Shown here: piece after piece, positions 1 to 28,724 of the stretch | How the letters are laid out: the number at the start of each line of letters is the position of its first letter | How positions within the stretch are numbered: the stretch's first letter is position 1 | IMG/VR virus record: IMGVR_UViG_3300009550_000049 | Span: 1 to 28,724 of that record | DNA length: 28,724 nt | Direction: 5' to 3' (one strand) | Source of the DNA: a virus | The notes under the pieces: model-generated | Databases searched by the model: none | Told to the model about the DNA's origin: nothing | What the model saw: only the letters and a program-made list of their open reading frames with translations | Position numbers and translations under genes: made by a program

Positions 1-4
1 AATA

Positions 5-235: not shown

Positions 236-404
236 AAAGAGTGATACATTTCAGTTTATAGGTAATAATATTAAATACGCAGACTTAACTCCAGAACAAG
301 ATTTCTTATTTAATTTACTAGTTAATGCAGAACAACAAAAGTCATTACTAGTGCAGAAACTTGCAGAAGAATTAGGAGTTGAGGATGTCAGTGGTCAAAA
401 CTAA
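225..404 (+). CDS. Small hypothetical protein (59 aa)
   Basis: An ATG at 225 inside the end of the glutaredoxin gene opens a 59-codon frame, preceded by an AAGGAAAAT purine stretch that can act as ribosome binding site. The product begins MEAKKSDTFQF, is acidic overall, and has a helical, heptad-like second half (residues 33-52, rich in Leu, Gln and Glu). No family is recognised. Its stop falls inside the following gene, a tight overlap typical of phage operons and the main support that it is real. Residues 22-48 (LTPEQDFLFNLLVNAEQQ onward) look like a small helical hairpin, so a protein-protein adaptor role is possible but unproven. Confidence 0.6.
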   Translation: MEAKKSDTFQFIGNNIKYADLTPEQDFLFNLLVNAEQQKSLLVQKLAEELGVEDVSGQN

Positions 405-852: not shown

Positions 853-854
853 CA

Positions 855-1040
855 ATGGATGATATATTTTATCCGAAGAAGAACAACGAAGACTCAATGA
901 TTGTTAAAGTCCTCTGGACGGATATGATTGATGATGTAGCTGTTGTTTCCTATAAAGATAAAGAATATACGCTATACTGGAATGACTCATGCAGCTACTA
1001 TGCTGGTGAGGTTAACGGACTAGAAGGTTACTTAGTGTAA
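855..1040 (+). CDS. Small hypothetical protein (61 aa), last gene before terminator
   Basis: ATG 855 is chosen because GGAG at 843-846 stands eight bases upstream; an earlier in-frame ATG at 828 lies inside the preceding gene with no ribosome site. The product is small, acidic and aromatic-rich (MDDIFYPKKNNED, then VKVLWTDMIDDVAVVSY), with alternating hydrophobic residues suggesting a small beta-barrel or Tudor/SH3-like fold. No family is recognised. It is the last gene of the upstream block and is followed directly by a strong intrinsic terminator. Confidence 0.6.
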   Translation: MDDIFYPKKNNEDSMIVKVLWTDMIDDVAVVSYKDKEYTLYWNDSCSYYAGEVNGLEGYLV

Positions 1041-1049
1041 CCGCTTATC

Positions 1050-1121
1050 GGGGTCTCTCTGGGATGTTCCTTGGCTTATGCTAGGGGATGTCTCGGAGAG
1101 ACCCCTCTATTTTTTTTTTTT
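1050..1121 (+). terminator. Strong intrinsic terminator with 10-bp stem and T tract
   Basis: GGGGTCTCTC at 1050-1059 pairs perfectly with GAGAGACCCC at 1096-1105. The long loop can fold further. The stem is followed by an almost unbroken run of T (about 1108-1121). It separates the block that starts with the glutaredoxin from the block starting at 1388. Confidence 0.9.
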
Positions 1122-1138
1122 GCTTAATTTTATGATAA

Positions 1139-1162
1139 AATAAATACTTCGCAATAATGATA
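1139..1162 (+). promoter_or_regulatory. Promoter-like repeat, copy 1 (core TTCGCAATAATGA)
   Basis: Bases 1139-1162 match 22794-22817 at 23 of 24 positions (C versus G at position 9). The 18-base heart also recurs at 22900-22917. The length and intergenic placement resemble phage single-subunit RNA polymerase promoters, which are usually 20-23 bp. It lies just after a terminator and about 225 bases upstream of the gene at 1388. A + strand direction is assumed from the downstream genes. That it is the promoter of the RNA polymerase encoded at 24646 is inference. Confidence 0.7.
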
Positions 1163-1164
1163 CA

Positions 1165-1208
1165 GTAGCTACGGGGGTGGGCTACGAAGAGGGGGTTGGG
1201 GGTGTAGC
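1165..1208 (+). promoter_or_regulatory. G-rich leader with G-quadruplex potential and alternative hairpins
   Basis: Four G tracts (1173-1177, 1179-1181, 1191-1195, 1198-1202) with loops of 1, 9 and 2 bases fit a relaxed G-quadruplex pattern, which stands out in AT-rich DNA. GCTAC at 1181-1185 can pair with GTAGC at 1165-1169 or with GTAGC at 1204-1208, so two stems exclude each other. The element would lie at the start of a transcript from the promoter-like repeat. Confidence 0.4.
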
Positions 1209-1311
1209 AATTACGAGGGTAATATCAAAGGTTATTGTCCAAATTCTATCTAACAAGCCCTATTGTATGTTTGTTGTTTGTTGTTAAATTATAATCTAAA
1301 TCCTATGTGAT

Positions 1312-1355
1312 TTATGAAAAATAATTATGATGACAAGAATTATGAAAAATAATTA
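1312..1355 (+). repeat. Perfect 16-bp direct repeat, 28-bp period
   Basis: TTATGAAAAATAATTA occurs at 1312-1327 and again at 1340-1355 with no mismatch. It is AT-rich, so chance is not excluded, but the exact match and position just upstream of an operon suggest tandem protein-binding sites or a duplicated host-type promoter segment. Confidence 0.55.
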
Positions 1356-1358
1356 AGT

Positions 1359-1373
1359 GTCATTAAAAATGAC
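1359..1373 (+). promoter_or_regulatory. Perfect 6-bp inverted repeat with AAA loop
   Basis: GTCATT (1359-1364) and AATGAC (1368-1373) are separated by AAA. The stem sits a few bases before the Shine-Dalgarno of the gene at 1388. It could be an operator, an RNA hairpin modulating translation, or, by analogy with the 3-base-loop hairpins used by the N4 virion polymerase, a promoter hairpin. Only the inverted repeat itself is seen. Confidence 0.4.
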
Positions 1374-1387
1374 TAATGGAGAGCAAA

Positions 1388-1471
1388 ATGAAAAGATATT
1401 TAAAACGCCTTTGGTGTGCTATAATGAATCGTAAATGCAGCCCAACTTGTGATTGTTTAGACAATGCTTGA
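1388..1471 (+). CDS. Very small basic Cys-containing peptide (27 aa)
   Basis: The ATG at 1388 follows a GGAGAG ribosome site with good spacing. The peptide is MKRYLKRLWCAIMNRKC followed by SPTCDCLDNA, with a basic amphipathic start and a CxxxCxC cluster. Its stop overlaps the start of the next gene (ATGCTTGA), giving translational coupling that the next gene seems to depend on, as that gene has no good ribosome site of its own. It may be a leader peptide, a small membrane-associated peptide or a metal-binding peptide. No family is recognised. Confidence 0.5.
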   Translation: MKRYLKRLWCAIMNRKCSPTCDCLDNA

Positions 1472-1766
1472 TGAGTATGACTTAGATAAGAACGGTAAAC
1501 TAGACCCAGAAGAACGTGCTATATATTTAGAAGATAGACGTAGAATGATGGAAGATGAGGACGCTAAAAGAGATGCCCAAAGAAATATGACTTGGTTCGC
1601 ATTAAGTGGCATGGTAATGTATCCTCTTGGTATTTTTATGTGTAGCCTCGTAGGTATGGATACTGCCGCCATGTTGATAGCTGATATAGCTAACATCTAT
1701 GTTGTCTCTGTGTCTGCACTTGTTGGTGCATACTTTGGTTTTACCGCAATGGGAGCAAAGAAATAA
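1464..1766 (+). CDS. EF-hand-containing two-TM membrane protein
   Basis: A 100-residue protein with three parts. Residues 6-17 form a near-canonical EF-hand loop (DLDKNGKLDPEE: acidic or amide residues at 1, 3, 5, Gly at 6, Leu at 8, Glu at 12), which in EF-hand proteins binds calcium. Residues 18-42 are a highly charged helix. Two hydrophobic segments follow (about 43-65 and 73-95). It overlaps the preceding 27-aa frame and the following gene (TAATG), so it belongs to a coupled small-membrane-protein operon. Holin-like topology is possible, but the calcium-binding head is not a usual holin feature. Motif and segments are seen; function is unknown. Confidence 0.7.
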   Translation: MLDEYDLDKNGKLDPEERAIYLEDRRRMMEDEDAKRDAQRNMTWFALSGMVMYPLGIFMCSLVGMDTAAMLIADIANIYVVSVSALVGAYFGFTAMGAKK

Positions 1767-1909
1767 TGTCTCAAATAGCCACGGCAATGCTAATACTGGG
1801 ATGCGTCATCTGTGGAGCAATCTTTGTGTTTACACGAGATTACACAGTAAGAGATAAGGACATTCCCAAGTATTTGTCAGGAAACAATAAACAAAAGAAG
1901 GAAGAATGA
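1766..1909 (+). CDS. Small single-TM membrane protein (47 aa)
   Basis: The start overlaps the previous stop by one base (TAATG). The product MSQIATAMLILGCVIC continues hydrophobic to about residue 22, then has a charged tail ending NNKQKKEE. This is one membrane span with a basic, probably cytoplasmic, C-terminus. The stop TGA is directly followed by the next ATG. Size and topology fit small phage membrane proteins such as holin or antiholin partners or spanin components, but no family is recognised. Confidence 0.65.
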   Translation: MSQIATAMLILGCVICGAIFVFTRDYTVRDKDIPKYLSGNNKQKKEE

Positions 1910-2302
1910 ATGTTAAAGAAATTAAAATACTGGCTTAAGGTCAAACGACTGCTATTGCCTGTTGCGATAATCGCTGGAGCTTCTTCAGCACACGCACTAG
2001 ACTTAGGCGGTGGACTTTCTGTAGGAGCAACTACAGACTTAAGCTACACGACAGGTTCGGAACTATGGGAACTTGACGTCACACCAAAAGTCGCTATGAC
2101 TGCTTTCGGAGCATCTTTGAGTGCTGAAAGTGACATAGACATATTAAGCTTAAACACTAATAATGAATTAAAAGATATGTTCACAGGAATTGACTGGAAA
2201 GCTTCTTATGCTTGGAAAGGCATGACAACTTATACAGAAGTTTCTTCAGATGCAGACTTTGAATTCGGCAACATCACAATGGGTGTTAAGTACAGCTTTT
2301 AA
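1910..2302 (+). CDS. Exported protein, outer-membrane beta-barrel-like
   Basis: A 130-residue protein with a clear Sec signal peptide: basic start (MLKKLKYWLKVKR), hydrophobic core (LLLPVAIIAGASS) and AHA cleavage site at residues 27-29. The mature part is Gly-rich with alternating polar and hydrophobic residues (LSVGATTDLSY, KASYAWKGMTTYTEV) and ends with aromatic Phe (MGVKYSF), the usual beta-barrel assembly signal of Gram-negative outer-membrane proteins. At about 100 mature residues it is small for a closed barrel and may oligomerise or be a partial porin-like module. A role in superinfection exclusion, envelope change or lysis is speculative. It is followed at once by a terminator. Confidence 0.7.
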   Translation: MLKKLKYWLKVKRLLLPVAIIAGASSAHALDLGGGLSVGATTDLSYTTGSELWELDVTPKVAMTAFGASLSAESDIDILSLNTNNELKDMFTGIDWKASYAWKGMTTYTEVSSDADFEFGNITMGVKYSF

Positions 2303-2310
2303 ATAAAAAG

Positions 2311-2354
2311 AGTCCTTGATTTTTTTTTAATGAGAATCAAGGGCTTTAATTTCT
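2311..2354 (+). terminator. Intrinsic terminator after the exported-protein gene
   Basis: AGTCCTTGATT (2311-2321) pairs with AATCAAGGGCT (2335-2345), eleven pairs with one G-T wobble. The loop holds a T run and the downstream flank is TTTAATTTCTGCTTTTTT. A second small hairpin, ACGAA/TTCGT followed by TTTTT, lies near 2386-2407. Confidence 0.75.
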
Positions 2355-2479
2355 GCTTTTTTATGTTAAAAATGAATGGCTTATTCACGAACAATTTATT
2401 CGTTTTTAATATGGAAAAGTATCAAAAACAACTGATAATAATTCCGAAATAATATTCTAAACAACTAGGAGAAAAGATT

Positions 2480-2857
2480 ATGGCAAATCCTAATCCCACC
2501 GTTAAAGTTAATGGCGGCAAAAGAGAGGGTGCTGGAAGACCAAAGGGTTCTAAAAATATTAACTCAATGGCTTCCGTGAAGAAGCTTGAAGAACTTGGCT
2601 TTGACCCTATAGAAAAAATGGTTGACCTTTATGGAGAGATAGAAATGAAACTTTCTAGCGGTACTATAAGAGAAGGCTCTGGGGCTTATGCCCAATTAGT
2701 CGCTACACGAGGACAACTTATCAACAACCTTATGCAGTATGGTTACAAAAGAGTTCCTGAGAAGATTGAACAGGAAATCACTGAGAAGAAGCCGATTGCT
2801 GTTAAACTAGACTTGGGAGTCACTAATGAAACAGGGAATAATCAGAACGTGGAGTAG
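2480..2857 (+). CDS. Putative terminase small subunit (AT-hook-type N-terminus)
   Basis: A 125-residue protein with a strong ribosome site (AGGAG, eight bases before ATG). Residues 12-26 (GGKREGAGRPKGSKN) form the basic motif seen at the start of many phage small terminase subunits, followed by a helical region (VKKLEELGFDPIEKMVDLYGEI) and a central helix-rich segment. Small terminases recognise the genome end and load the large terminase. It begins the packaging block and lies 2.8 kb before the large terminase, with other genes in between, so the name is an inference. A general DNA-binding protein is the alternative. Confidence 0.55.
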   Translation: MANPNPTVKVNGGKREGAGRPKGSKNINSMASVKKLEELGFDPIEKMVDLYGEIEMKLSSGTIREGSGAYAQLVATRGQLINNLMQYGYKRVPEKIEQEITEKKPIAVKLDLGVTNETGNNQNVE

Positions 2858-3323
2858 CATTAAACATGATAATGGAGTAGCACAAATATTGCTGTATGCT
2901 CTATGGGGTTTATTTATCTCTGGAATGTATTTGGAAGACGAGTCTATGAGACTATTGGTCGCAGGGTGGGTAGTTATACAAACAACAACAATCATTATCC
3001 TTGTATGGGGTAATAAGAAATTCCTACAATACTCGTTGCTAGCTAACGTTGCTGCTTCTTGTTGCATACTAGGATTATACATAACTACTCTGTTAGTACC
3101 CGATAAAGAAGCCGTTGGTCAATTAGTTTATTATTTCAATAGCGTTGATGGGATGCAAAGAGCTAACATGGGTTATACCCTTTACGATAAATTTCATGAT
3201 GCGGCTGTGTTCCTTTCCAAAGGTCTTAGCTGTGGTATGCTTATTGTGCATGGTATTTACCTTGCAAATCTCGTTCAAAGACAAGAATTAGAAAAGAAGA
3301 GGTTTAGCAATGGACGAACTTAA
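2826..3323 (+). CDS. Polytopic membrane protein (about 4 TM), unknown
   Basis: A 165-residue protein whose ATG at 2826 follows GGGAG (2815-2819) by six bases and overlaps the previous gene by 32 bases. Four hydrophobic segments are visible: about residues 18-36, 43-61, 67-90 and 128-150. The C-terminal tail is charged (RQELEKKRFSNGR). No family is recognised. The gene overlaps the spanin-like gene that follows, so the pair may act together in the inner membrane, for example in lysis, but the holin best recognised in the window lies elsewhere (21925). Confidence 0.7.
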   Translation: MKQGIIRTWSSIKHDNGVAQILLYALWGLFISGMYLEDESMRLLVAGWVVIQTTTIIILVWGNKKFLQYSLLANVAASCCILGLYITTLLVPDKEAVGQLVYYFNSVDGMQRANMGYTLYDKFHDAAVFLSKGLSCGMLIVHGIYLANLVQRQELEKKRFSNGRT

Positions 3324-3621
3324 TTTAACCACTATGATGCCACTATTCGTGGCTCTGGTAGGTTCAGCTGGGTTATGGAAGTTTCTTTCCGTAAAGTCTC
3401 AGCAAGCACATGATAGAGCAGTGCAAGACCAAGAGTCTCGTGCTCAATTTAATGACACACTTAAAGAACAAGTAGACCATCTAACTGAAAGGGTAGAAAC
3501 ACTAGCTAGCGAGAAAGAAAAGCTATTATTAGAAATGGGTAAGCTTCGTGAGGACTTAGCCACGGCTACCGCTACTATTAAACATTTAGAGCAAACACTT
3601 TTAATTCAACAAAGCAAATAG
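3310..3621 (+). CDS. Spanin-like (Rz-type) membrane-anchored coiled-coil protein
   Basis: A 103-residue protein with one N-terminal hydrophobic segment (about residues 8-27, MMPLFVALVGSAGLWKFL) followed by a long charged coiled coil. Heptad-type leucines and many Glu, Lys and Gln run from residue 35 to the end (LKEQVDHLTERVETLASEKEKL). This is the architecture of inner-membrane spanins such as lambda Rz, which bridge the periplasm to disrupt the outer membrane. No outer-membrane lipoprotein partner is seen overlapping it, so the assignment is from architecture only. It could also be a structural or holin-associated protein. Confidence 0.5.
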   Translation: MDELNLTTMMPLFVALVGSAGLWKFLSVKSQQAHDRAVQDQESRAQFNDTLKEQVDHLTERVETLASEKEKLLLEMGKLREDLATATATIKHLEQTLLIQQSK

Positions 3622-3630
3622 AGGACGACT

Positions 3631-4098
3631 ATGATAGACCCCTTCACAGCCCTTAGTGTAGCGTCTGCTGCTGTAAGTCAAATGAGGACACTTATTACTA
3701 ATGGTAGGGATGCTAGTGCTGCAATGTCTAAGTTTGCTGGGGCTTGGAGTGATATTAACTTTGCTGAAAATAAAGCAGCTAATCCTCCTTGGTATAAATC
3801 CTTCTCTCAAAGCGTTGAGAAAGAAGCATTAGAGATTTATACAGCCAAGCGAAAAATGGCAGAGATGAAAAAAGAAGTTGAAACCATGATACAATTTATT
3901 CATGGACCAACTGGTCTTGCGGAGTATAAAGATACGATTAGAGCTGTTAGAGATGAAAGAAGAAAGCATGAATACAAGAAAGAAGAAATAAAGCAAGCCA
4001 TTATTGATTGGACAGTAGGCATACTTTGTTTTCTTGTTGTTGTTGGTCTTATAGGGGTAGCTATATGGTTTGTAGGAGGTAGTCAAGGTAAATGGTAG
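3631..4098 (+). CDS. Conserved phage protein with C-terminal TM (MIDPFTAL family)
   Basis: A 155-residue protein preceded by GAGGA. The opening MIDPFTALSVASAAV, the KFAGAWSDINFAENKA segment and the long charged helix resemble a conserved unknown protein I associate with marine podoviruses and myoviruses, where it lies among structural genes. Residues 60-120 are mostly helical and charged. A hydrophobic segment (about 127-149, VGILCFLVVVGLIGVAIWFV) near the end makes it a tail-anchored membrane protein. The function is unknown; an internal virion protein or membrane-interacting protein is conceivable. The family resemblance is from memory and not computed. Confidence 0.7.
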   Translation: MIDPFTALSVASAAVSQMRTLITNGRDASAAMSKFAGAWSDINFAENKAANPPWYKSFSQSVEKEALEIYTAKRKMAEMKKEVETMIQFIHGPTGLAEYKDTIRAVRDERRKHEYKKEEIKQAIIDWTVGILCFLVVVGLIGVAIWFVGGSQGKW

Positions 4099-4247
4099 GA
4101 ATGTACTCGTGGAATAATCGTTACATTGTTATTGATGAGAATGGCAAAATTATTATATCAACTACCAATAAAAGAATAGCCAGACATCAGATGATAAAGG
4201 AGAAAGAGAATGGCGAGAGCGAATCCCCGAATATGGGAGAAGGCTAA
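4092..4247 (+). CDS. Small overlapping hypothetical protein (51 aa)
   Basis: A frame from ATG 4092, or more likely ATG 4101 (MYSWNNRYIVIDENGK), to TAA 4245-4247. It overlaps the previous gene by 7 bases at its first ATG and the next by 38. Up to residue 39 it reads like a genuine protein with a small beta-hairpin (RYIVIDENGKIIISTTN) and a basic helix; the overlapping end is less convincing. The fill of an otherwise empty 110-base gap supports it. No family is recognised. Confidence 0.45.
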   Translation: MVGMYSWNNRYIVIDENGKIIISTTNKRIARHQMIKEKENGESESPNMGEG

Positions 4248-4578
4248 GAAAGATGCTGTGTCTAGGATGGGTGGTAAACACTCTGCTAGAGCTATGCAAT
4301 TAGCCGCTAAACTTTATCGTGATAGGGGTGGTAAATACACTGGTGGTAAAGATGCTTCACAGAAGTCTATGACTAAGTGGACTAAACAAAAGTGGCGTAC
4401 CAAATCAGGAAAGAATTCTGTGTTAGGTTCGGGAGCCAGTGGAGAACGTTATTTACCTACTAAAGCAATTAATAGAATGTCTAAGAGTCGCTATGCAAGG
4501 TCATCAGCCAAAAAGCGTAGAGACACTAAGGCAGGTAAACAATATTCAATTCAACCTAAAAGAAGAAGGAAGAAATAA
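4210..4578 (+). CDS. Basic DUF5872-like protein
   Basis: A 122-residue, very basic protein beginning MARANPRIWEKAKKDAVSRM, with GGKHSARAMQLAAKLYRDRG and the segment GGKDASQKSMTKWTKQKWRT. This pattern recalls the DUF5872 family known from phages and large eukaryotic viruses, whose function is undetermined. The last third is Lys/Arg-rich (KSRYARSSAKKRRDTK and a KRRRKK end), suggesting nucleic-acid binding. It has a GGAGAAAGAG ribosome site and is the first of four consecutive lysine-rich genes between the candidate small and large terminases, so a role in DNA condensation or packaging is inferred. Confidence 0.65.
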   Translation: MARANPRIWEKAKKDAVSRMGGKHSARAMQLAAKLYRDRGGKYTGGKDASQKSMTKWTKQKWRTKSGKNSVLGSGASGERYLPTKAINRMSKSRYARSSAKKRRDTKAGKQYSIQPKRRRKK

Positions 4579-4579
4579 C

Positions 4580-4696
4580 ATGCCAATGGGAAAAGGAACA
4601 TACGGAAGTAAAGTGGGTAGACCTCCGAAAAAGAAAAAGAAGCCTATGAGTAACAAAGCTAAAATGGCTAAACTTCGTTCTATGAGGAAAAAGTAG
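4580..4696 (+). CDS. Tiny lysine-rich protein (38 aa, MPMGKGTYGS type)
   Basis: The start at ATG 4580 follows an AAGGA stretch and stands one base after the previous stop. A longer frame reaching back to 4439 lies wholly inside the preceding gene and is not used. The peptide is MPMGKGTYGSKVGRPPKKKK followed by a basic tail, with a GRP core like an AT-hook. Similar tiny proteins are, from memory, common beside structural genes in marine phages. About a third of residues are Lys or Arg. A DNA-binding or capsid-internal role is inferred. Confidence 0.6.
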   Translation: MPMGKGTYGSKVGRPPKKKKKPMSNKAKMAKLRSMRKK

Positions 4697-4718
4697 CTAA
4701 AAGAAAGGTAGGCAAGTA

Positions 4719-5303
4719 ATGCCCAAAAAGAGAATTAAAAGGTTATTCAGTTCTGTTAAAAAGAAAGCAAGGACTGCTAAACAAAAGGCTGCCCTCAAAG
4801 CGGCTCAAGCTGCCTCTGCTGCTAAGCGTAAAGTAAAGGGGAAGACATCATCAATTAAGAAAAGAGGAAGATATCTTGGCTTAGCCGTAAAAGCTAAAGC
4901 TAGAGGAAGAGCCTTACAAGCTAAGCGTAATACTAAAAAGAATGTAGGAAAAGCTTCTGCTCGTACAAAGAATATATCTGCTACAGCTAGAACCAAAGGC
5001 ACTAACTTTAGAGCTTCAACAAAAGCTAAGATGGGTCTTGCTAAAGCTGTTAAAACAAAAGGTCTTAAGAATAAAGTCGTAGCTACATCTAAAGCGGCTG
5101 TTAATGTTGCTAAAGTAAAATCTGCTAACAGGAAGCGCACTATGGCTACTCGTTTAGCAAACACTAAGCGTTCTCAAGCTGCTGGCATTAAGACTAAATC
5201 TCGTAAAGATAATAGACCAACTCTAGGTTCTCTTAAGGCTAAAGCTTTAAAGAAGTATAAAGCTGCTAGACGAACAGTTGGAGTTGCTCGGAAGTTATTC
5301 TGA
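4719..5303 (+). CDS. Histone H1-like / protamine-like Lys-Ala-rich protein
   Basis: A 194-residue protein made largely of Lys, Ala, Arg, Thr and Ser, with irregular repeats of AKxK and TKxK across its length and almost no acidic residues. Composition resembles histone H1 tails and bacterial H1-like proteins, which bind and compact DNA. No folded domain is visible, and the match is compositional, not a demonstrated homology. Its stop overlaps the next ATG (TGATG), and it lies in the run of basic genes ahead of the large terminase. Neutralising packaged DNA in the head, or acting on host DNA, would fit. Confidence 0.65.
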   Translation: MPKKRIKRLFSSVKKKARTAKQKAALKAAQAASAAKRKVKGKTSSIKKRGRYLGLAVKAKARGRALQAKRNTKKNVGKASARTKNISATARTKGTNFRASTKAKMGLAKAVKTKGLKNKVVATSKAAVNVAKVKSANRKRTMATRLANTKRSQAAGIKTKSRKDNRPTLGSLKAKALKKYKAARRTVGVARKLF

Positions 5304-5584
5304 TGGCTAAAGACCCTAGACTAATCAAGTTAGGTTTGTCTGGTTATAATGTAGCTAAGAGAACTCCTAATCATCCAACCAAGTCTCATGTTGTTGTTGC
5401 TAAAGTCGGTGACAAGATTAAGACTATTAGGTTTGGTTCACAAGGGGCTGTAGGAAGCCCTAAGAAAAAGAATGAGTCTCCAGCATATAGAGCTAGAAGA
5501 TTAGCTTGGAAAAAGAGACATGCTGAAGATATTAAGCGTGGTAAGATGAGTGCTGCTTGGTGGGCTAACAAGGTTAAATGGTAA
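5303..5584 (+). CDS. Conserved basic phage protein (MAKDPRL family), unknown
   Basis: A 93-residue basic protein: MAKDPRLIKLGLSGYN, then THPTK-like PNHPTKSHVVVAKVGDK, KTIRFGSQGA and a C-terminus KMSAAWWANKVKW. These segments match a conserved unknown protein I associate with marine phages. The middle (residues 28-47) looks like a small beta-sheet and the end is an amphipathic basic helix with tryptophans. It overlaps both neighbours by single-base stop-start junctions (TGATG and TAATG), so it is translationally coupled. A DNA-binding function is plausible; none is established to my knowledge. Confidence 0.65.
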   Translation: MAKDPRLIKLGLSGYNVAKRTPNHPTKSHVVVAKVGDKIKTIRFGSQGAVGSPKKKNESPAYRARRLAWKKRHAEDIKRGKMSAAWWANKVKW

Positions 5585-5664
5585 TGAAAGAACTAGCAAC
5601 TTTATATGTAGTTCTTGTACTATTTTTTCTTGGTGCTGCGGAAGTAGTACAGTATTTCCATTAA
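5584..5664 (+). CDS. Tiny single-TM peptide (26 aa)
   Basis: The ATG at 5584 overlaps the previous stop by one base (TAATG). The peptide MKELATLYVVLVLFFLGAAE ending VVQYFH is almost entirely one hydrophobic helix. It fills the only gap between two strong genes, and its stop is 13 bases before the terminase ATG, all of which supports translation. Such peptides can be holin-like or regulatory. No family can be assigned at this length. Confidence 0.45.
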   Translation: MKELATLYVVLVLFFLGAAEVVQYFH

Positions 5665-5677
5665 AGAGAGTAATAAT

Positions 5678-7012
5678 ATGACAGATATAGTTTTACACAA
5701 AGGTCAATCAGAAATCATTAGAGACCTGTTTGTAGAGCAAAACAATAGATATGCAGTAGTGTGTGCTTCAAGGGGTTTTGGTAAATCCTTTCTAGCCGCT
5801 ACTGCTGCTATGTTAGCTGTACAAGAATTAATGGAGTTGGGTGACGAAGTTCCTAATAAGAACGTAGCCCTTATTGCTCCAACATACAGCCAAGCAGTAG
5901 ATATTTATTTTCCTTTATTGGCGTATCAATTAGGCTTAGAAGAATTTGCTGACAAGTCTTCCAAAGCGTCTGGAACATTCTGGTTTCCAGGCAATGTTAA
6001 CTTAAGACTATGGTCTTATGAAGCATCTGAAAGGATGAGGGGTACTGGGCAATACTTTGTTATTGCTGACGAGGTTACCTCTTGGAAAGGTGCTGGAATG
6101 AATTTAAAGGAATCTTGGGAATCAATCATACAACCGTGTTTGACTACTCGTTGGTCACCAGATATGCAAAATAAATTTAATGCTCCCTCTGCAGGTCGAG
6201 CATTGATTATTAGCACACCTAGAGGTTATGATTATTTCTATGAAATGTGGAATAGACAAGATACAGACGATGAGTGGAATTCTTATCACTTTACATACAA
6301 GGATTCTCCTTATACAGATGATACAGAAATTGATAGGGTAAAACTTACACTAGACCCTCTAAAGTTCGCTAGAGAATATGAAGCAAGCTTTGAAGACTCA
6401 GGTACTAATGTATTTTACACCTTTAACAGAAAAGAACACATCGATAAAACTCTTCCTAATTTTGAAGCAGATGAAGATGTACACATAGCAGTAGACTTTA
6501 ACGTAGGCATTATGGCTTCCGTTGTGTTTGCTCTACGTGGTAATCAAATACACATACTAGATGAGATGCAAGGACACCCAGACACGGAGTCTCTTTGTAA
6601 AGCATTAACGGCTAAATATCAAGGACACCGTTTAATAAGTTACCCAGACCCTGCAGGTAAAGCGAGAAAGACATCTGCAGCAGTAGGTACAACAGATTTC
6701 AGCATACTACAGTCACACGGAATAGCTACGAGGGCGCATAATAAAGCACCTCCAATAATTGATAGTGTAGCGGCTGTTAACAAGAAATTTAAAAACGCTA
6801 ACGGTGATATTGACATGTTGGTTCATCCTAAATGTGTTAACACAATTAAATCAATAGAGCGTACTCAATGGGTTGAAAGTAACCCCGATACAGCTAGCAT
6901 TGATAAGAAAGAAGGCATAGAACATTGGACTGATGCCCTTCGTTATGCAGTTGAATATTTATATCCAGTGCGTTCAGGAACTAAAGCAACAACAAGAGGC
7001 TTTGGCTTCTAA
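5678..7012 (+). CDS. terL: Terminase large subunit (packaging ATPase/nuclease)
   Basis: A 444-residue protein of usual TerL length. Walker A is ASRGFGKS at residues 30-37, Walker B VIADE at 128-132, and the coupling motif STPRG at 179-183. The C-terminal nuclease region shows VDFNVG with Asp 273, YPDPAG with Asp 324, and a late HWTDALRYAVEY acidic helix, the spaced acids expected of an RNase H-like headful or cos nuclease. It docks on the portal and pumps DNA into the head. The ribosome site is AGAGAG. The portal is 16 kb downstream, an unusually wide separation with fibre, tail and lysis genes in between. Confidence 0.95.
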   Translation: MTDIVLHKGQSEIIRDLFVEQNNRYAVVCASRGFGKSFLAATAAMLAVQELMELGDEVPNKNVALIAPTYSQAVDIYFPLLAYQLGLEEFADKSSKASGTFWFPGNVNLRLWSYEASERMRGTGQYFVIADEVTSWKGAGMNLKESWESIIQPCLTTRWSPDMQNKFNAPSAGRALIISTPRGYDYFYEMWNRQDTDDEWNSYHFTYKDSPYTDDTEIDRVKLTLDPLKFAREYEASFEDSGTNVFYTFNRKEHIDKTLPNFEADEDVHIAVDFNVGIMASVVFALRGNQIHILDEMQGHPDTESLCKALTAKYQGHRLISYPDPAGKARKTSAAVGTTDFSILQSHGIATRAHNKAPPIIDSVAAVNKKFKNANGDIDMLVHPKCVNTIKSIERTQWVESNPDTASIDKKEGIEHWTDALRYAVEYLYPVRSGTKATTRGFGF

Positions 7013-7102
7013 TATACAGAAGATTAAGCTAGACACCATCGTCTATGCAATGAAACATTTTACTTAAATACCAGCCGAGGCTCGTGGAAAGGAAAATATA
7101 AC

Positions 7103-7561
7103 ATGCCGAGAAGTAGAATTAACTCTCGCTCTAATGACTTGTTAAAGGACGATGGAGCAATACTTCTTTCTATAGTGAAAGGAGAACAGGTTCAATTTGA
7201 AGTTACTCTCGGATGGCTCACCAACTTAACAGGCTACACAATTACACCCAAAATTGTTGAAGCTAATGTAGTTGGTTTAGACACCGATAGTACTACTGAT
7301 GATTTACCAACATCAAAACAAACTGGCGGTCAAGTTAAAACTTTAACAGTAATTGACTCGACAGTTACAGATAATAAATTTAAATTAGTAATACCAGAGG
7401 ACTTAGTTGACCTCTATGTTACTCAGCCAACACCAGAGCACCCAGTATATGGTTTCTTTGGACTGGAAATTCGTGATAACGGTGTAGGAAACCAACAACA
7501 GGTGTGGAAACCTATGCGTGGATTAGTCGAGATACTATATTCTCCAAGTGAGGAGACGTAA
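7103..7561 (+). CDS. Virion structural protein, fibre-block leader, unknown
   Basis: A 152-residue protein preceded by AAAGGAAAA. After a basic start (MPRSRINSRSNDLL) it shows beta-rich segments (QFEVTLGWLTNLTGYTITPK, TLTVIDSTVTDNKFKLVIP) ending with WKPMRGLVEILYSPSEE. The pattern of a baseplate or fibre N-terminal domain with an Ig-like sheet, followed by a short fibre protein, resembles BppU-like upper-baseplate modules. No family is firmly recognised. It opens the fibre block and is separated by three bases from the next gene. Confidence 0.6.
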   Translation: MPRSRINSRSNDLLKDDGAILLSIVKGEQVQFEVTLGWLTNLTGYTITPKIVEANVVGLDTDSTTDDLPTSKQTGGQVKTLTVIDSTVTDNKFKLVIPEDLVDLYVTQPTPEHPVYGFFGLEIRDNGVGNQQQVWKPMRGLVEILYSPSEET

Positions 7562-7564
7562 GCT

Positions 7565-7978
7565 ATGCCACAGTTTAATGTTTCTTTATCTCGTACAGGT
7601 GGTCAAGGCTCTAAAGGGGATAGTGTAACAGGTGCAAATATTGCCAATAATGGTGACCTCATCTTTACAGTAACTCGTGCCGATTCAACTACTTTTACTA
7701 TAAATGCTGGCTCTTTAGCTGGGGCTTCCCTCAACTTAGGCCAACTAAACGATGTTACTATCACATCCAGTACAAATAATCAGGTTCCCATGTTTAATAG
7801 CGCAACTAGTAAATATGAGAATCACTCACTTACAACTTCGAAGATGACAGATATTGATAACACAGGTCAAACAGATGGCTCTATGCTTGTCTATAATAGT
7901 ACATCTAGTAAATATGAAGCGACAACCCAACTAGGCGGTGGCGCAGGAACAATAGCATTAATTGGAGGCTCATTCTAA
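7565..7978 (+). CDS. Short fibre protein with collagen-like start
   Basis: A 137-residue Ser/Thr/Gly-rich protein with a GAGGAG ribosome site. The N-terminus MPQFNVSLSRTGGQGSKGD carries a short G-x-y stretch; then GLN-type beta repeats follow (VPMFNSATSKYENHSL and MLVYNSTSSKYEATTQL are two copies of one unit). The end is GGGAGTIALIGGSF. It is a paralogue of the 10160 gene (same LSRxGxQGSxG motif, then a NGDLIFTV-like strand). Its stop overlaps the next ATG (TAATGG). It is probably a trimeric fibre segment or attachment module. Confidence 0.7.
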   Translation: MPQFNVSLSRTGGQGSKGDSVTGANIANNGDLIFTVTRADSTTFTINAGSLAGASLNLGQLNDVTITSSTNNQVPMFNSATSKYENHSLTTSKMTDIDNTGQTDGSMLVYNSTSSKYEATTQLGGGAGTIALIGGSF

Positions 7979-20481: not shown

Positions 20482-21403
20482 GCGAATTAAAATTACACCA
20501 AATCGAATAATCTGTAAAGATTCTAGTGGTGCTACAACTTTTGATACAGATAATAAATATGTTAAAAACCAGTCTGGAGGTAGCTTTAAATTAAGCGGTA
20601 CTGTTGAAACCCCTATGCTTGGTTTTCTTTCAGACTACTATACTCCCTCACACCCAACACCTTATCCTTTTACTAATGTTTCAGGATTTTCTATGGACGT
20701 TATGGATTTTAACAGAGACAGCTCAGGCAATATTAATTTTATAATTCCAACTTTTCCTTATGCTTTTAGTGATGTTACTAATTTAAATTCTGGAGGTACT
20801 ATTGGAGCTTATGCTAATTTTTATACTAGCAATACTGCTTTAATATCTGGCATACCTTTTGGAACTAATCGATTATCAGGACAAAAACCTTTTACTTATG
20901 GTGCAGATTCCGAAATGGATCCAAACTTAAGTCCAAGATTAATCTCAACATGGGAACCTAGATATAACGGTAATAAAATGCAAGTTACTCTTACATATAA
21001 TACTACGTCTCTTGGAACATATGATGTTCAATATTATTATTGGGAAAGAAATCAAATACCTCCACCTGCTTACGACTTTTTCCCTTTTGCAAGTAGAGCA
21101 TATCTTGTTAATGCTGCACAGAATTTTACTGTTTCTGGTACTACTCTTGAAGATGGAGGTACATTATATGGTAGAGTGAATTATTCCTTTTTTAATTCAG
21201 CTTATTGCCTTACTAGAACTTCTGCATCATTAAATTCTGGAACACCAGCCCATAGTGCTGGCACTACTGTAAGTTTTCCTACAAATATTAGTAGTAGTTC
21301 AGCATTAGCCGCAAGAGTAAGACCCACCTCTATTGTATACCGTCACGGTTCTGTTGCAGCCAGTATGACACCTAAAACAGTTAGTTTAGGAGTAACACCA
21401 TGA
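20474..21403 (+). CDS. Receptor-binding fibre candidate
   Basis: A 309-residue protein overlapping the previous gene by eight bases and the next by four. It starts VERIKITPNRIICKDSSGATTFDTDNKY at bases 20477 on, a module that also starts the 21400 product (SLKITTSNISIQNNAGVDKF then DSDDKL). The remainder is rich in Tyr, Phe, Pro, Gly and Ser (TPSHPTPYPFTNVSGFSMD, VQYYYWERNQIPPPAYDFF), as expected of a surface-exposed recognition domain. No family is recognised. The shared N-terminal module suggests attachment to a common site on the tail tip. Confidence 0.55.
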   Translation: MVERIKITPNRIICKDSSGATTFDTDNKYVKNQSGGSFKLSGTVETPMLGFLSDYYTPSHPTPYPFTNVSGFSMDVMDFNRDSSGNINFIIPTFPYAFSDVTNLNSGGTIGAYANFYTSNTALISGIPFGTNRLSGQKPFTYGADSEMDPNLSPRLISTWEPRYNGNKMQVTLTYNTTSLGTYDVQYYYWERNQIPPPAYDFFPFASRAYLVNAAQNFTVSGTTLEDGGTLYGRVNYSFFNSAYCLTRTSASLNSGTPAHSAGTTVSFPTNISSSSALAARVRPTSIVYRHGSVAASMTPKTVSLGVTP

Positions 21404-22795: not shown

Positions 22796-22817
22796 TAAAT
22801 AGTTCGCAATAATGATA
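22794..22817 (+). promoter_or_regulatory. Promoter-like repeat, copy 2 (core TTCGCAATAATGA)
   Basis: It matches copy 1 (1139-1162) at 23 of 24 bases and starts on the endolysin stop codon. A stem, CAGGTA (22823-22828) with TACCTG (22837-22842), begins six bases downstream and would lie at the 5' end of a transcript. Like copy 1 it is just upstream of a gene block. Confidence 0.7.
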
Positions 22818-22896: not shown

Positions 22897-22919
22897 CAAA
22901 ATACTTCGCAATAATGACC
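22896..22919 (+). promoter_or_regulatory. Promoter-like repeat, copy 3 (core TTCGCAATAATGA)
   Basis: Bases 22900-22917 match copy 1 at all 18 positions (1143-1160). Outside that core it diverges (the left three to four bases and the last two). It lies after the hairpin and about 100 bases before the portal gene, so it is the best candidate promoter for the portal and MuF-RNA polymerase operon. Confidence 0.7.
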
Positions 22920-23014: not shown

Positions 23015-24580
23015 ATGGCATTAGTTAAAACAGCTGCTAGTTCACATAAGCGTGGTGTAGAAACACCTACCGCATCGTATTTGTCTTTAAAACCACTATG
23101 GAAAAAATCTCGTAGTATTTTACAAGGACAAGCACATGCAAAAGCTCATGATGAATTTGTTGAGACTGACTACAGCAATTTGCTGATTCCTTTCTCACCT
23201 AGCATGACCCAAGCACAATATGAATTTTATAAAGCAGAGGCAGAACTGCCTGGATTGACTACACAATATGCTCGTGTATTGATATCTGCTCTATTAAGAA
23301 AGCCATCTCAAATGAATCTCCCCGAAGATTTATCTGATGATGTATATAATTGGCTAACGAAAGATTTTACATTAGATGGATATAGCTTGTTTAACTTTTT
23401 AGATGAAGCTATTTGGGAAGAATTACAAACATCTAGAGCATGGGTTTATGTAGATAGCCCCGATATTAGTGCTGAAGAATACGATGCAATGGACACCTTT
23501 GCAAAGGATATGATTAAGCCTTATCCGATTCTTATGAAGGCTGAAAATGTAATTAACGTACAAATTAAGTCACATCCAGTAACTAAAGTAAAAACATTAT
23601 CTAGATGGGTTACACGATATATTTCAGAAGAATATTTGCCAAATAATCCTTGGCATCCAAACTATATAGACACCGTAGCAGACCATTACTTAGATGACCA
23701 AGGTAAGCTTGTTATTGATTATTATCAAAGAAAAGACCCTAATCACTCAGTAGATGCGGTTAATGGAGAACTTAGACAAGATTATCATGATGAAGTAGAG
23801 TCTGGCTTTGAGAAATATAATACAGTAACCCCTATGAAATATGGTGAACGCTTAGACTTCATTCCTGCGTGGCCTTTGAATGGTCAACTAGAACCAGTTG
23901 AACCAGTGCTTATGCCATTGGTAGACCGTGAAGTAGCTTTATATAATAAAGTTTCAAGACGTAACCACCTTCTTTATGGTGCAGCAACCTATACTCCTGT
24001 AGTTCAGTCTGATATGACAGATGAAGAATTCGAGGAGATTGTTAATGCTGGACTAGGTACTTGGTTACGAGTTCGTAAAGACGAATCCATTAGTGTTTTA
24101 GAAACACCAACAGGTGCGCTTCAAGACATGGATAGGTCGATTGAAGCAACAGTTGCAGAAATGGCTAAGATGGGTATTAGAATGTTATCACCAGAGCAAG
24201 CCGCTTCAGGTGTCGCATTAGAAATTAGAAACGCTTCTCAAACAGCGCAACTTGGTACTCTTAATGCTAAGATATCGGGCACAATGCAAGAGATTATCGC
24301 ATTTATGATTAACTGGAAATTAAACACTGAATACTCAGGTAATGATATTGGTTTCCAACTATCCGCAGACTTCTCACCTATGGTTGGTGGAGAGGCAGCT
24401 ATGCGTCTTGTATCTGAATGGTATCAAGGTGGCATTATTAGCCGTGACACTTTTGTGAACATTGCTAAATATAATGACTTCTTACCAGCAGATTATAATG
24501 ATGAAGAGGCTACAGAACAAATCATGACAGACCCACTAATACAGGAAACACCTGATAGTGAAGTTATGATTGAAGAGTAA
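23015..24580 (+). CDS. Portal protein (DUF4055-like)
   Basis: A 521-residue protein after AAGGAG. The N-terminal part contains LTTQYARVLISALLRKPSQM and LFNFLDEAIWEELQTSRAWVY, typical of the wing and clip regions of portals; MPLVDREVALYNKVSRRNHLL, then SVLETPTGALQDMDRSIEATV and MLSPEQAASGVALEIRNASQ match the stem/crown helix region of DUF4055-type portals. It should form a dodecameric ring at one vertex, through which DNA enters and leaves. The MuF-type gene immediately follows, the standard portal-minor head protein order. The DUF4055 label is by resemblance. Confidence 0.8.
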   Translation: MALVKTAASSHKRGVETPTASYLSLKPLWKKSRSILQGQAHAKAHDEFVETDYSNLLIPFSPSMTQAQYEFYKAEAELPGLTTQYARVLISALLRKPSQMNLPEDLSDDVYNWLTKDFTLDGYSLFNFLDEAIWEELQTSRAWVYVDSPDISAEEYDAMDTFAKDMIKPYPILMKAENVINVQIKSHPVTKVKTLSRWVTRYISEEYLPNNPWHPNYIDTVADHYLDDQGKLVIDYYQRKDPNHSVDAVNGELRQDYHDEVESGFEKYNTVTPMKYGERLDFIPAWPLNGQLEPVEPVLMPLVDREVALYNKVSRRNHLLYGAATYTPVVQSDMTDEEFEEIVNAGLGTWLRVRKDESISVLETPTGALQDMDRSIEATVAEMAKMGIRMLSPEQAASGVALEIRNASQTAQLGTLNAKISGTMQEIIAFMINWKLNTEYSGNDIGFQLSADFSPMVGGEAAMRLVSEWYQGGIISRDTFVNIAKYNDFLPADYNDEEATEQIMTDPLIQETPDSEVMIEE

Positions 24581-24591
24581 CCCCCCAGATG

Positions 24592-24611
24592 GCGGCTCCT
24601 TCGGGAGTCGC
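24592..24611 (+). terminator. UUCG hairpin between portal and MuF-polymerase genes
   Basis: GCGGCTCC (24592-24599) and GGAGTCGC (24604-24611) pair, with one wobble, around a TTCG loop. The flank (TCAAGTTCTATTT) is only moderately T-rich. It may be a partial terminator lowering the amount of the giant downstream product relative to the portal. Confidence 0.6.
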
Positions 24612-24645
24612 TCAAGTTCTATTTAACTACTCAATGGAGTACTAG

Positions 24646-27600
24646 ATGACTATAAATGACAACTTATTTGACCGTATTGTTGACCACATGGGAGATGTGC
24701 GACTATACGAAGAAGGTGTACAAATCACCAACAGACGTATTATTAAACGTCACAGAAAGAATTTAAGAAATCTATTAGTAAAGGATATCAGGTCTAATGT
24801 CTCACCAGAGATAAAACGATTTGGGAAGGAACTTAATTCGTCCTTAACTAACTCTGTTAAGGAGTTCTCCGCTACTCAATTAGATTTCCACTCAGATAAT
24901 ATTTATAAAGAAACTCGCAAGTTCTATAAAACGACTCGTCCTAGAACTAAGCAGTTATTAGCAGAAGTCACTGGACCAAATATTAAAGGTACTCCTACAA
25001 TTACTAAGAACCTTAATAATATTGCGTCAGGTGAATTAGTTCGTATTCAGTCTAAAGTTAAAACTGGTTTAGCTAAAGGTATGTCTCAAAAAGATATTAT
25101 TAATGATGTTATGAAAACAACAAAGATAACAGAACATCAAGCTAGGACACTTACACGAACAAGTATTACTTCTACACAAACTGCAGCACTTAATAAAGTA
25201 ATGGATGATAACGAAGAAATTATTAAAGGCTATATGTTTACAGCTATCTTAGATGCTCGTACCAGTCCTATTTGTACTCATCATAATGGTAAAGTTTATG
25301 GACTAAACGAAAAGCAATATAGACCACCTCTTCATTGGAATTGTCGTTCTTCTATGATTCCTGTTTTAAAAAGTAAAGAAGAACTAGCAGAAATAACTTC
25401 GCCAAAGATTAAAAAGGGCGCACTTTTAAAAATAAGACCAGACCGCTTAAATGGCATACAACCTAGACGTCAAAGTTTTGGTGAATGGCTTAAGAAACAA
25501 ACCTATGATGTACAATCTAAAATGCTTGGCACAGCTGCAAAAGCAGATATGTTTAGGCAAGGTATGTTAAAAGTTTCTGAGTTTGTTACACCAAAAGGTA
25601 AAGCATTAACTATTACAGCTTTAAGACGAAGGGCTGCTCAAGCCACTGCTGTGTTTAATCCTAAACAAATACAGCGTGAACGAGGTGTAAGAGTACAATC
25701 TCGAACTCCTAATAGTTTGCTTAACAATCCGAAAAATAAAGATGATTTGAGAACTTTGTTTTTGTTAGACGCAAATGACTATAATAGTCCTATGGCTCTA
25801 ACAGATTTCAAAGGTACATCTTTGGTTGGTAAACAATCATCTCGTAGGCGAGTAGGTAATGTTTTTGATGAACGTAACTTTTCAGCAGACCCTGTAACTG
25901 GCGAAATAAAGAATAATTTAATATATGAACCTGATTTTAACTTATATCAGGAACGTATTGACTTTATGCGAAGAAGTAAACTTCTATCTAGTGAACAAAA
26001 AGACTATATAGAAAACTTTGTAGCTGGTTTGGATGACAAAATATCTGTTAATCAACAAACAGTAGTAATAGAAAACCTTCGTGTTGTACTAGAACGTTAT
26101 GCTAAAGACAAGAAACCTTGGGATGATTTTGCTAGCGTTGTACGTGCTGAACACAGATTTGCTGTTCAAAACGTTTCTAGATTATTGGATACTCGTAGTC
26201 GTCAACGTAATCAAATGTTTATTTCATACTTATCTAAAGACACGCCTCAAGTGCAAATCATGGGTAAGTATTATACTTTCGATGAACTATCTAAAAACAG
26301 ACTTAAAGACCAAAGGTTTGCTAAAGATTGGGATAGAAAGTTTGGACGTAAAATAGCTAATAAAGCATTCTATAAAGGTCGTGCTCCGCTTAGAGCATAC
26401 TTTACTAGAGTTACTGATAAGTATATTGACTTAAATAAAACTAAACAAAGACTTCTTGACAACGTTATCCCTTTACGGAGAGAATTAAGAGAATTTAAGA
26501 AGAAGTTTAAAAGAGAACCTTCAGATGGTTGGTGGATAAACACCACTGGTAAATACCGAGAAACTTTTAGAAATATAGTAGATTTAGAATTTTTACAACG
26601 TAGAAAAACTGCTGCTTTTAGAAATGACTTGGCTAAGCAAGAAAAGACAATGTTAAAAATTGTTAGATATATTGCAGAAGGTAAATCTACTGATTATGAT
26701 GCTTTGGCTATTAAAATTGGTGATATTTTAAATGAAGACTTTCCTGACTTAATCCCAGGCTTTTCAAGCACTATTGCTTCTAAACATGCGGAAGGCTCTA
26801 AAATACTTGAGTTTTTAAGAGAACAAGGAATGATTAAAATCGGCTTTAGGGGTGTTGTAAGACGAGGTGTTTATGATGTAGACACTGGTAGAGCATCAAC
26901 AGGTTGGGGCGATACGGTATCTCGTGAAGTTAGAGTTGTTAACAAAGATATGCTTGCCTTACAAGAAAATGAAAGAAGACTTTTCATTTCTCAAAGAGTA
27001 GGTATTGTCAATAAACGTGACAGATTATACGTTAGAGCAAATAAGAAAACATTCTTTGATGCTCGTGGCAATGACACAGGTATTCCAGTTGTTTCAGCTA
27101 GCAAATTTCCTGACTATGACCCTAAACAAATAGATGGTGACATGGCTTCAATGCTAAATCATGTGATGAGCGTGGAATATGAAGTTGATGATACCTTTGC
27201 TGGCTTTATGGATGATTTAGTTAGATTCCGTGACCCTCGTGGTAATGTGAGAAAGTTTGATGACTTAAACTATTTTAGACAAGCAATCTTAACTCGTGGA
27301 GAACAAGGTTATAGTCTGATGTCAACAATTAAATATCATAGACAACGTGGTAAACCTTTTACAACAGGTGTATTTATTGACTCTCGTGGTCGTGTATATC
27401 ATCGTGGTTATCTTACTCCTACTGGTGGTGAATTAGTTAGACCATTTCTTAATTCAGCTAAGTCTGTAAATTTTAGTCCAGAGGCATATAGAGAACTTAG
27501 AATACAGATTGGTGCTATGCTTGGCCTCGATACTGAAACCCTTACTAACTCAGGTCGTTTACGTGCTTTCGAAAGAAATAAAGAAGAACTTCTTAAAATT

Positions 27601-28724
27601 GGTGAAATGCTGTCTGCTACTACACAAAGAGATAGACGCATTAGACAATTTCTCGAACATCCTATTATACAACATGCTGGAGATGAACCTGCAGAAATCC
27701 CTAAGATTGCAAGATTAGCATTAGAATATTATCGTTTACATAATCATGTAGATGGCGATTTTAATAATATAGCAAAACTTAGAACTTATAAAACTAAACT
27801 AATGATTGAAAACGATGCTTCATCAAGTGGAGCACAAATTATTGGTTTATCTACAGGTGACCGAGCTATTAGTGAACTTTCTAATGTTGTACAAACACAA
27901 CAGAAACAACGTTTATATGACGTTATTGCCCAGAGAACTATTGATGACCCAGACTTTCGTAAAATTGCCTCATTAAGAGATGCTGGCTTAACTTGGAAAG
28001 ATTTAGCTAAAGGTGCTAAATATCAAAACATGGTTACTTTTTATGGTGCTGGAGAAGCAACTAAAGCGGCTAATGTTTCTAGAGGTGTTGCTAAAGTTTT
28101 AGAGAAAAAAGGATTTATAACAGTTACTAAGGCAGACCTTAGTGAACAATTAAGAACAATCGATAATAAAATTAAACAATCGCAAAAGCTAGGTGCTGAT
28201 GCGGTAGTTGCAGATTTAACTGCATTTAGAAAAGAACTGGTGGAAACTGTTAATAATGGCTCCCCAGTACCCAGAACTTTACTTAAAGAGGCTGCGGAGA
28301 TACATACTGACACTGAAGAATTTGTAAACAAACTTTATAATAATAGAGTTGGTATAGTTGGTCCAAAAGATTTCGATGCTATATCAAGAATCATGTCTAA
28401 ATATCTTGAACAAGAAGCACCTGTCACTGGACAGTTTATTAAGTTTTGGAAAAGTGCAGCAAGAAAATACGTTGAGGATACAGGTAATGTTGATATACCT
28501 TGGGTTACTTTCGATGGCAAAGTAATGATGCAAAGATATCGTCCTCCTGTTCAACAACGAATAGAGTTTACAGACCCAAATACTGGGCGTAAAGTAAGAA
28601 ACATCTACGAAGGTAGAGCGACAGATGGCAAGATGAAGGGTAAAGCTGACCTTGCTAATGCTGCTATTGGATTGGGTGTTAATGGTAACCACAGCAACGA
28701 TGCTGTGATTGTGCGGAGGTTCCA
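24646..28724 (+). CDS. MuF minor head protein fused to single-subunit (T7/N4-like) RNA polymerase, 3' end cut by window
   Basis: One frame, open for 1,359 codons from ATG 24646 (GGAG six bases upstream) to the window edge. Residues ~105-240 are a MuF/SPP1 gp7 domain: HQARTLTRTSI, LDARTSPIC (Asp 203, Arg 205, Cys 210), then PPLHWNCR (residues 227-234). Residues ~255-335 keep the usual MuF tail (EWLKKQ, then LTITALRRR). The polymerase then shows DSRGRVY at 912-918 (T7 D421-R425), NDASSSGAQ with Asp 1057 (T7 motif A D537), K1125...M1129...Y1133-G1134 (T7 K631, M635, Y639, G640 of motif B), and HSND at 1349-1352 (T7 H784 region). Motif C (HD) would lie about 25 residues beyond the edge. No stop or frameshift is seen. 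Alignments are by eye. A role in early transcription from inside the virion is inferred. Confidence 0.85.
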   Translation, partial: MTINDNLFDRIVDHMGDVRLYEEGVQITNRRIIKRHRKNLRNLLVKDIRSNVSPEIKRFGKELNSSLTNSVKEFSATQLDFHSDNIYKETRKFYKTTRPRTKQLLAEVTGPNIKGTPTITKNLNNIASGELVRIQSKVKTGLAKGMSQKDIINDVMKTTKITEHQARTLTRTSITSTQTAALNKVMDDNEEIIKGYMFTAILDARTSPICTHHNGKVYGLNEKQYRPPLHWNCRSSMIPVLKSKEELAEITSPKIKKGALLKIRPDRLNGIQPRRQSFGEWLKKQTYDVQSKMLGTAAKADMFRQGMLKVSEFVTPKGKALTITALRRRAAQATAVFNPKQIQRERGVRVQSRTPNSLLNNPKNKDDLRTLFLLDANDYNSPMALTDFKGTSLVGKQSSRRRVGNVFDERNFSADPVTGEIKNNLIYEPDFNLYQERIDFMRRSKLLSSEQKDYIENFVAGLDDKISVNQQTVVIENLRVVLERYAKDKKPWDDFASVVRAEHRFAVQNVSRLLDTRSRQRNQMFISYLSKDTPQVQIMGKYYTFDELSKNRLKDQRFAKDWDRKFGRKIANKAFYKGRAPLRAYFTRVTDKYIDLNKTKQRLLDNVIPLRRELREFKKKFKREPSDGWWINTTGKYRETFRNIVDLEFLQRRKTAAFRNDLAKQEKTMLKIVRYIAEGKSTDYDALAIKIGDILNEDFPDLIPGFSSTIASKHAEGSKILEFLREQGMIKIGFRGVVRRGVYDVDTGRASTGWGDTVSREVRVVNKDMLALQENERRLFISQRVGIVNKRDRLYVRANKKTFFDARGNDTGIPVVSASKFPDYDPKQIDGDMASMLNHVMSVEYEVDDTFAGFMDDLVRFRDPRGNVRKFDDLNYFRQAILTRGEQGYSLMSTIKYHRQRGKPFTTGVFIDSRGRVYHRGYLTPTGGELVRPFLNSAKSVNFSPEAYRELRIQIGAMLGLDTETLTNSGRLRAFERNKEELLKIGEMLSATTQRDRRIRQFLEHPIIQHAGDEPAEIPKIARLALEYYRLHNHVDGDFNNIAKLRTYKTKLMIENDASSSGAQIIGLSTGDRAISELSNVVQTQQKQRLYDVIAQRTIDDPDFRKIASLRDAGLTWKDLAKGAKYQNMVTFYGAGEATKAANVSRGVAKVLEKKGFITVTKADLSEQLRTIDNKIKQSQKLGADAVVADLTAFRKELVETVNNGSPVPRTLLKEAAEIHTDTEEFVNKLYNNRVGIVGPKDFDAISRIMSKYLEQEAPVTGQFIKFWKSAARKYVEDTGNVDIPWVTFDGKVMMQRYRPPVQQRIEFTDPNTGRKVRNIYEGRATDGKMKGKADLANAAIGLGVNGNHSNDAVIVRRF

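Follow-up and report, generated by a model that had tools for sequence, protein, structure and literature searches.

The virus record IMGVR_UViG_3300009550_000049 of IMG/VR, analysed over its whole length of 28,724 bases and referred to here as the window, ends inside an open reading frame (ORF) in which a MuF-type head protein and a T7-type single-subunit RNA polymerase (RNAP) are joined. This ORF is probably the virion RNA polymerase of a Naomviridae-like siphophage, which would be carried in the head as cargo, ejected and used for early transcription, with a second RNAP then serving the late genes. The fusion, its catalytic motifs and fold, the selection acting on it, the gene order, the second polymerase of the relatives and two classes of promoter-like motif can all be read from the sequences. 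An earlier note on this DNA had proposed that the MuF part targets the polymerase into the head, from where it is ejected to transcribe entering DNA without host polymerase, and this interpretation is supported overall, with packaging, ejection and host-independent transcription as the steps that we infer.

A head protein and an RNA polymerase in one frame

The ORF (24646–28724; all genes, domains, motifs and repeats located in the window are on the plus strand) is a single open frame with an ATG start, and its 1359 codons (24646–28722) run off the contig end with about 100 amino acids missing. It begins with a MuF/SPP1-gp7-type head domain at residues 1–260 (24646–25425), which carries C210..H213 and PPLHWNC motifs and a Pfam core at residues 134–237 (25045–25356; PF04233, E 6e-15, 56.3 bits against a cut-off of 29.6). 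A helical linker or extra region follows at residues about 262–520 (25429–26205), outside the T7 match and with its border taken from structural alignment, and the T7-type polymerase part occupies residues about 522–1359 (26209–28722). The one-frame fusion claimed previously is therefore confirmed in the window. The ORF also matches PHROG 241 ‘head morphogenesis’ (E 2e-53), and the model of its N-terminal part (predicted local distance difference test, pLDDT, 73.6) matches predicted viral minor capsid and head morphogenesis proteins; a Foldseek search of solved structures in the PDB with the MuF model gave no convincing match.

The polymerase part contains the DxxGR motif (DSRGRVYH, residues 912–919, 27379–27402), which is invariant in relatives, motif A (NDASSSGAQ with the catalytic Asp 1057, 27811–27837), motif B (K1125, Y1133 and G1134 in KYQNMVTFYGAG, 28018–28053) and NHSND (residues 1348–1352, 28687–28701), the equivalent of the T7 HSxD segment; the residue numbers given for these by the earlier note matched exactly on recheck. 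Motif C lies beyond the window, which stops about 15 residues short of its expected position, and its HD pair was found in complete relatives, such as H1376 and D1377 of locus L005. The T7-type set (DxxGR, the motif A Asp, KxxxxxxxYG in motif B, HSxD and HD) is present in this protein family, the HD being seen via relatives only, and is conserved throughout the complete relatives (DSRGR 914–918, D1059, K1127/Y1135/G1136, HSND 1351–1354 and HD 1376–1377 in L005 numbering); the catalytic motifs show little or no variation even among members with identities as low as about 45%. PHROG 414 ‘RNA polymerase’ matches residues 907–1357 (E 1e-17). The Pfam RNA_pol profile scores 12.6 bits on the incomplete window protein, under its cut-off of 22, and 22.7–39 bits, over the cut-off, in most full-length relatives, with G003 under it at 15.9.

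When the two parts are considered separately, the C-terminal one has the T7 polymerase fold and the N-terminal one, as described above, resembles MuF head proteins. An AlphaFold2 model of L005 residues 341–1462 (mean pLDDT 78.5) aligns with T7 RNAP (Foldseek E 3.8e-19, Z 28.8), with the mitochondrial RNAPs (POLRMT) at Z about 24, and with the N4 mini-virion RNAP (2po4) at Z 15.8, so that the fold is common to the N4 enzyme but the match is well below that to T7. At the sequence level a relation to T7-like RNAPs can be detected (a T7-like RNAP of a phage matches at E 6e-8; hmmsearch gives 6e-9 in a four-sequence set), whereas none to the polymerase domain of N4 gp50 could be detected (profile comparison E 0.25; hmmsearch 0.06). 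The core had previously been called ‘T7/N4-type’; it is of the T7/mitochondrial type, and membership of the N4 family was rejected on sequence although the fold is shared. Strong purifying selection on both halves is indicated by ratios of nonsynonymous to synonymous substitution (dN/dS) of about 0.01–0.08 for the MuF part and about 0.02–0.10 for the polymerase part. Separate translation of the polymerase from an internal start was also considered and rejected, as no Met between the domains is fully conserved (best 83%, L005 residues 441 and 542).

Full-length homologues with the same two-domain order, which the earlier note had suggested looking for, are abundant. A tblastn search of phage records found them in the roseophages DSS3_VP1 and DSS3_PM1, where identity is 59% across the entire 1359 residues, and also found a split homologue in EBPR siphovirus 1; among the matches listed, the remaining ones cover the MuF part only. 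IMG/VR yielded 80 loci with relatives; in total, 44 ORFs are complete and share this domain order (about 1450–1600 amino acids, most of them 1450–1500), and a profile scan found at least 549 relatives. The fusion group is widespread among marine bacterial viruses, and a lytic lifestyle is suggested because no prophage relative was found in bacterial genome contigs. In the DSS3_VP1 and DSS3_PM1 deposits the gene is named ‘minor head protein-like protein’ and the polymerase domain is not annotated. One sublineage (L071:10739–11167, L078:1145–1573 and L069:1708–2136) has an insert of about 130–140 amino acids at the border of the MuF and polymerase parts, with conserved FGExHT, HRDREaFM-like and MGNxHxF segments and no assigned family; a TraB-like or protease identity was suspected by eye and receives no support from Pfam or PHROGs.

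Gene order, a second polymerase and promoter-like motifs

The gene has the neighbours of a MuF gene, adjoining those for the portal and the major capsid protein. In the window the portal gene (23015–24580; phrog_145, E 9e-44) lies directly upstream of the fusion, which is followed by the contig end, and the order portal, MuF–RNAP, major capsid is seen in every genome covering the region (DSS3_VP1, DSS3_PM1, G001, G002, G006, G007, G010 and EBPR siphovirus 1). The window shares core genes and their order with DSS3_VP1, with identities of 68% for terminase, 59% for MuF–RNAP, 49% for portal, 42% for PhoH and 31% for J. All four relatives with an early region that was examined (DSS3_VP1, G001, G002 and G006) encode another T7-like RNAP, an ordinary one of about 720–770 amino acids (Pfam matches of E 5e-74 to 4e-87), and DSS3_PM1 has one too.

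Two classes of motif accompany these genes. Class 1, the early motif, has the form TGAGAAAA-N5-GCATCTATAAT and was found at 18 distinct sites and at none in shuffled sequence; in each of the same four genomes it precedes the second RNAP by 2–7 kb and shares its strand. Its upstream GCATC is invariant and nearly all copies have a perfect TATAAT. Directly downstream there is often a short hairpin (DSS3_VP1 35809 and 36256; G002 6104–7978), the arms of which covary between sites (GATAC/GTATC, GATAGA/TCTATC, GAAGA/TCTTC) and which is perhaps a 5' RNA stem.

Class 2, the late motif, differs by lineage, being ATAGGKKRCGTTAAAGARGGGG in DSS3_VP1 and DSS3_PM1, a GACGTTAAAGA variant in G002 and G006, AATACTGCCGCCTAATGA in G001 and G007, and AATASTTCGCAATAATGA in the window, where three copies were found against 0.02 expected. 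The copy AATAGTTCGCAATAATGA at 22798–22815 is a candidate late promoter for the second polymerase, upstream of the portal gene and at the same position as late-motif copies in DSS3_VP1, G001 and G007; AATACTTCGCAATAATGA occurs as a second copy at 22900–22917 and as a third at 1143–1160. Copies stand directly upstream of the portal gene in DSS3_VP1 and DSS3_PM1, G001, G007 and the window. The class 2 sequence tracks the second RNAP, in that enzymes with 57% identity keep the motif and those with 46% do not, whereas class 1 is constant across lineages. The simplest pairing, which we infer from these sequence patterns, would assign class 1 to the MuF-fused polymerase and class 2 to the free RNAP.

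Elsewhere in the window, the terminase large subunit gene (5678–7012) is 68% identical to that of DSS3_PM1, in which the gene is intact; the DSS3_VP1 terminase is annotated as two genes and contains a group I intron (L002:3960–4176, 93.9 bits) followed by a small ORF. A tRNA-Asn is annotated between the portal and MuF–polymerase genes of DSS3_VP1 (21063–21138) and DSS3_PM1 (39589–39664), and the corresponding stretch of the window (24581–24645) has no tRNA and a small stem-loop at about 24590–24615. The region before the terminase (1–5600) is a run of small ORFs without identity, with a long hairpin and then a T-tract at about 1041–1120. An Rfam scan of the window found no known RNA.

Proposed mechanism and its alternatives

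The MuF domain, produced late beside the portal and capsid proteins, would be built into the procapsid and would bring a few copies of the fused polymerase into the head; a virion is thought to hold 2–3 copies of a MuF protein (PMC12226406). On infection the fusion would be ejected together with the DNA, as is the similarly placed gp44 of 80alpha, which acts on incoming DNA (PMC7290940). What points to packaging and ejection of the polymerase is its fusion to MuF. Once ejected, the protein would read the early genes from the conserved class 1 promoter, host polymerase being dispensable for that step, and one early product would be the second, free T7-like polymerase, which in turn would read the late genes, including those for the portal and the MuF–polymerase itself, from the different, lineage-specific promoter.

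By analogy, the two motif classes and the second polymerase would match the virion-polymerase cascade of N4, phiKZ and P23-45. The N4 virion RNAP is succeeded by a second phage polymerase. The AR9 virion RNAP makes early RNA that includes the message for a second RNAP, which makes late RNA including that for the virion RNAP (PMC9209446), and the virion RNAP of P23-45 likewise makes early RNA that includes a second RNAP (PMC10770324). The DNA of DSS3_VP1 has deoxyuridine (dU) in place of thymidine (PMC12697855); the window does not include the region of nucleotide-metabolism genes. We tentatively raise a more specific possibility, that a T7-type polymerase tethered at the portal vertex might start on the first incoming uracil DNA at its own promoter, making host polymerase unnecessary even in the first minute, and might also pull in the remaining genome; we consider it doubtful.

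Several points weigh against a virion polymerase acting in this way. The window ends before motif C and does not reach the early region; no second RNAP was seen in EBPR siphovirus 1, which is a partial record; the fusion, at about 165 kDa, has to traverse the portal and then a long siphophage tail, for which it would probably be unfolded; and the TATAAT inside the conserved early motif leaves room for use by host RNAP. It is conceivable on this last ground that the polymerase is packaged but that host RNAP starts early transcription at the TATAAT, the virion polymerase serving to pull the genome in or to prime replication. We regard this as unlikely, since the near-universal TATAAT is accompanied by neither a −35 box (mean best match 2.4/6 against 3.0 for random) nor a TG extension, the invariant GCATC is not required by sigma-70, and the site in locus L034 has a TATATT box yet keeps GCATCTATA. 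Sigma-70-like sites are also not enriched in the early block of DSS3_VP1, and a sigma-70 reading of the motif was rejected for this and for the missing −35 box.

It is improbable, too, that cleavage of the fusion, following translation or in the course of head maturation, leaves MuF behind in the head and frees the polymerase to act in the cell, in a late or replication-associated role and not as cargo. The long linker is modelled with low confidence and some members have the insert of about 130 amino acids exactly at the domain border, as cleavage would allow, but these phages already own a separate T7-like polymerase, and the proposal gives no reason for a one-frame fusion in every complete member found.

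It is very improbable that the polymerase part has lost catalysis and serves the head only as a structural element that binds DNA. Its sequence similarity to known RNAPs is low, with weak matches to solved structures, but the DxxGR, motif A, motif B, HSxD and HD residues persist in distant members, dN/dS is low (about 0.02–0.1), and two separate group I introns lie in the motif B codons of distant relatives. One is at L068:5531–5850 (Rfam 85 bits); the other, in EBPR siphovirus 1 (L003:23179–24039), scores 40.5 bits, below the gathering score, with E 2e-8, and contains a gene for an HNH endonuclease. Genes interrupted by introns at catalytic motifs are typically functional and conserved. Finally, the end of the window within the ORF might have suggested that two genes were joined by chance or by faulty assembly, but this is refuted because the same join occurs in two isolate genomes and in 44 complete ORFs on other contigs.

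Relation to known systems and significance

An ejected, MuF-borne virion polymerase would have parallels in several systems. The closest are DSS3_VP1 and DSS3_PM1 (Naomviridae, Noahvirus), which have terminase, PhoH, J, endolysin, portal and MuF–RNAP in the same order as the window and differ in having their own late motif and the tRNA-Asn noted above. The N4 virion RNAP (gp50 of Schitoviridae) shares the single-subunit T7 fold, and a few copies of it travel in the head and are ejected (PMC12633501), but it is a protein of ~3500 amino acids with other flanking domains from a podovirus, compared with about 1450–1600 amino acids and a MuF N-terminus here; complete members of the fusion group are not giant proteins with gp50-like N-terminal injection and C-terminal encapsidation regions. 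In the long-tailed phage P23-45, gp96 is likewise a virion RNAP joined to a structural protein, with a second polymerase made early (PMC10770324), although it is a two-barrel enzyme related to cellular RNAPs and is joined to the tape measure protein instead of MuF. AR9 and phiKZ-type phages share the cascade from virion to non-virion RNAP, and AR9 has dU-DNA (PMC9209446) as does DSS3_VP1 (PMC12697855), but their RNAPs are the multisubunit enzymes of jumbo phages, in contrast to a single-chain MuF fusion. T7 RNAP has the same catalytic core, motifs and fold, but is a free early protein made from host-transcribed RNA and is not virion-borne.

MuF fusions to effectors (polymorphic toxins, RelA/SpoT, PBECR and (p)ppApp synthetase) also combine an N-terminal MuF with a C-terminal enzyme thought to be virion-borne (PMC5512222, PMC12226406); those effectors are directed at the host, whereas the MuF protein described here would carry an RNA polymerase that serves phage genes. 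MuF joined to many effectors is listed in a survey of polyvalent phage proteins, which places N4-like virion RNAPs in N4-like phages only (PMC5512222). Virion polymerases and MuF–enzyme fusions are each known, and their combination was not found in the literature searched, which did not extend to the DSS3_VP1 genome paper, so that an earlier description is possible.

If the proposed role is correct, virion-carried transcription arose once more, and by a simple route, in which a ready-made head and ejection protein was joined to a T7-type polymerase. It would account for how transcription starts in at least some siphophages of abundant marine bacteria with dU-DNA, which host enzymes may read poorly, and would give a function to a gene that public records name ‘minor head protein-like’. 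It would also provide a virion polymerase that is small, related to that of T7, served by a distinct promoter and open to testing in the cultured pair DSS3_VP1 and Ruegeria pomeroyi DSS-3, and it would offer a natural model for the use of MuF as a cargo tag.

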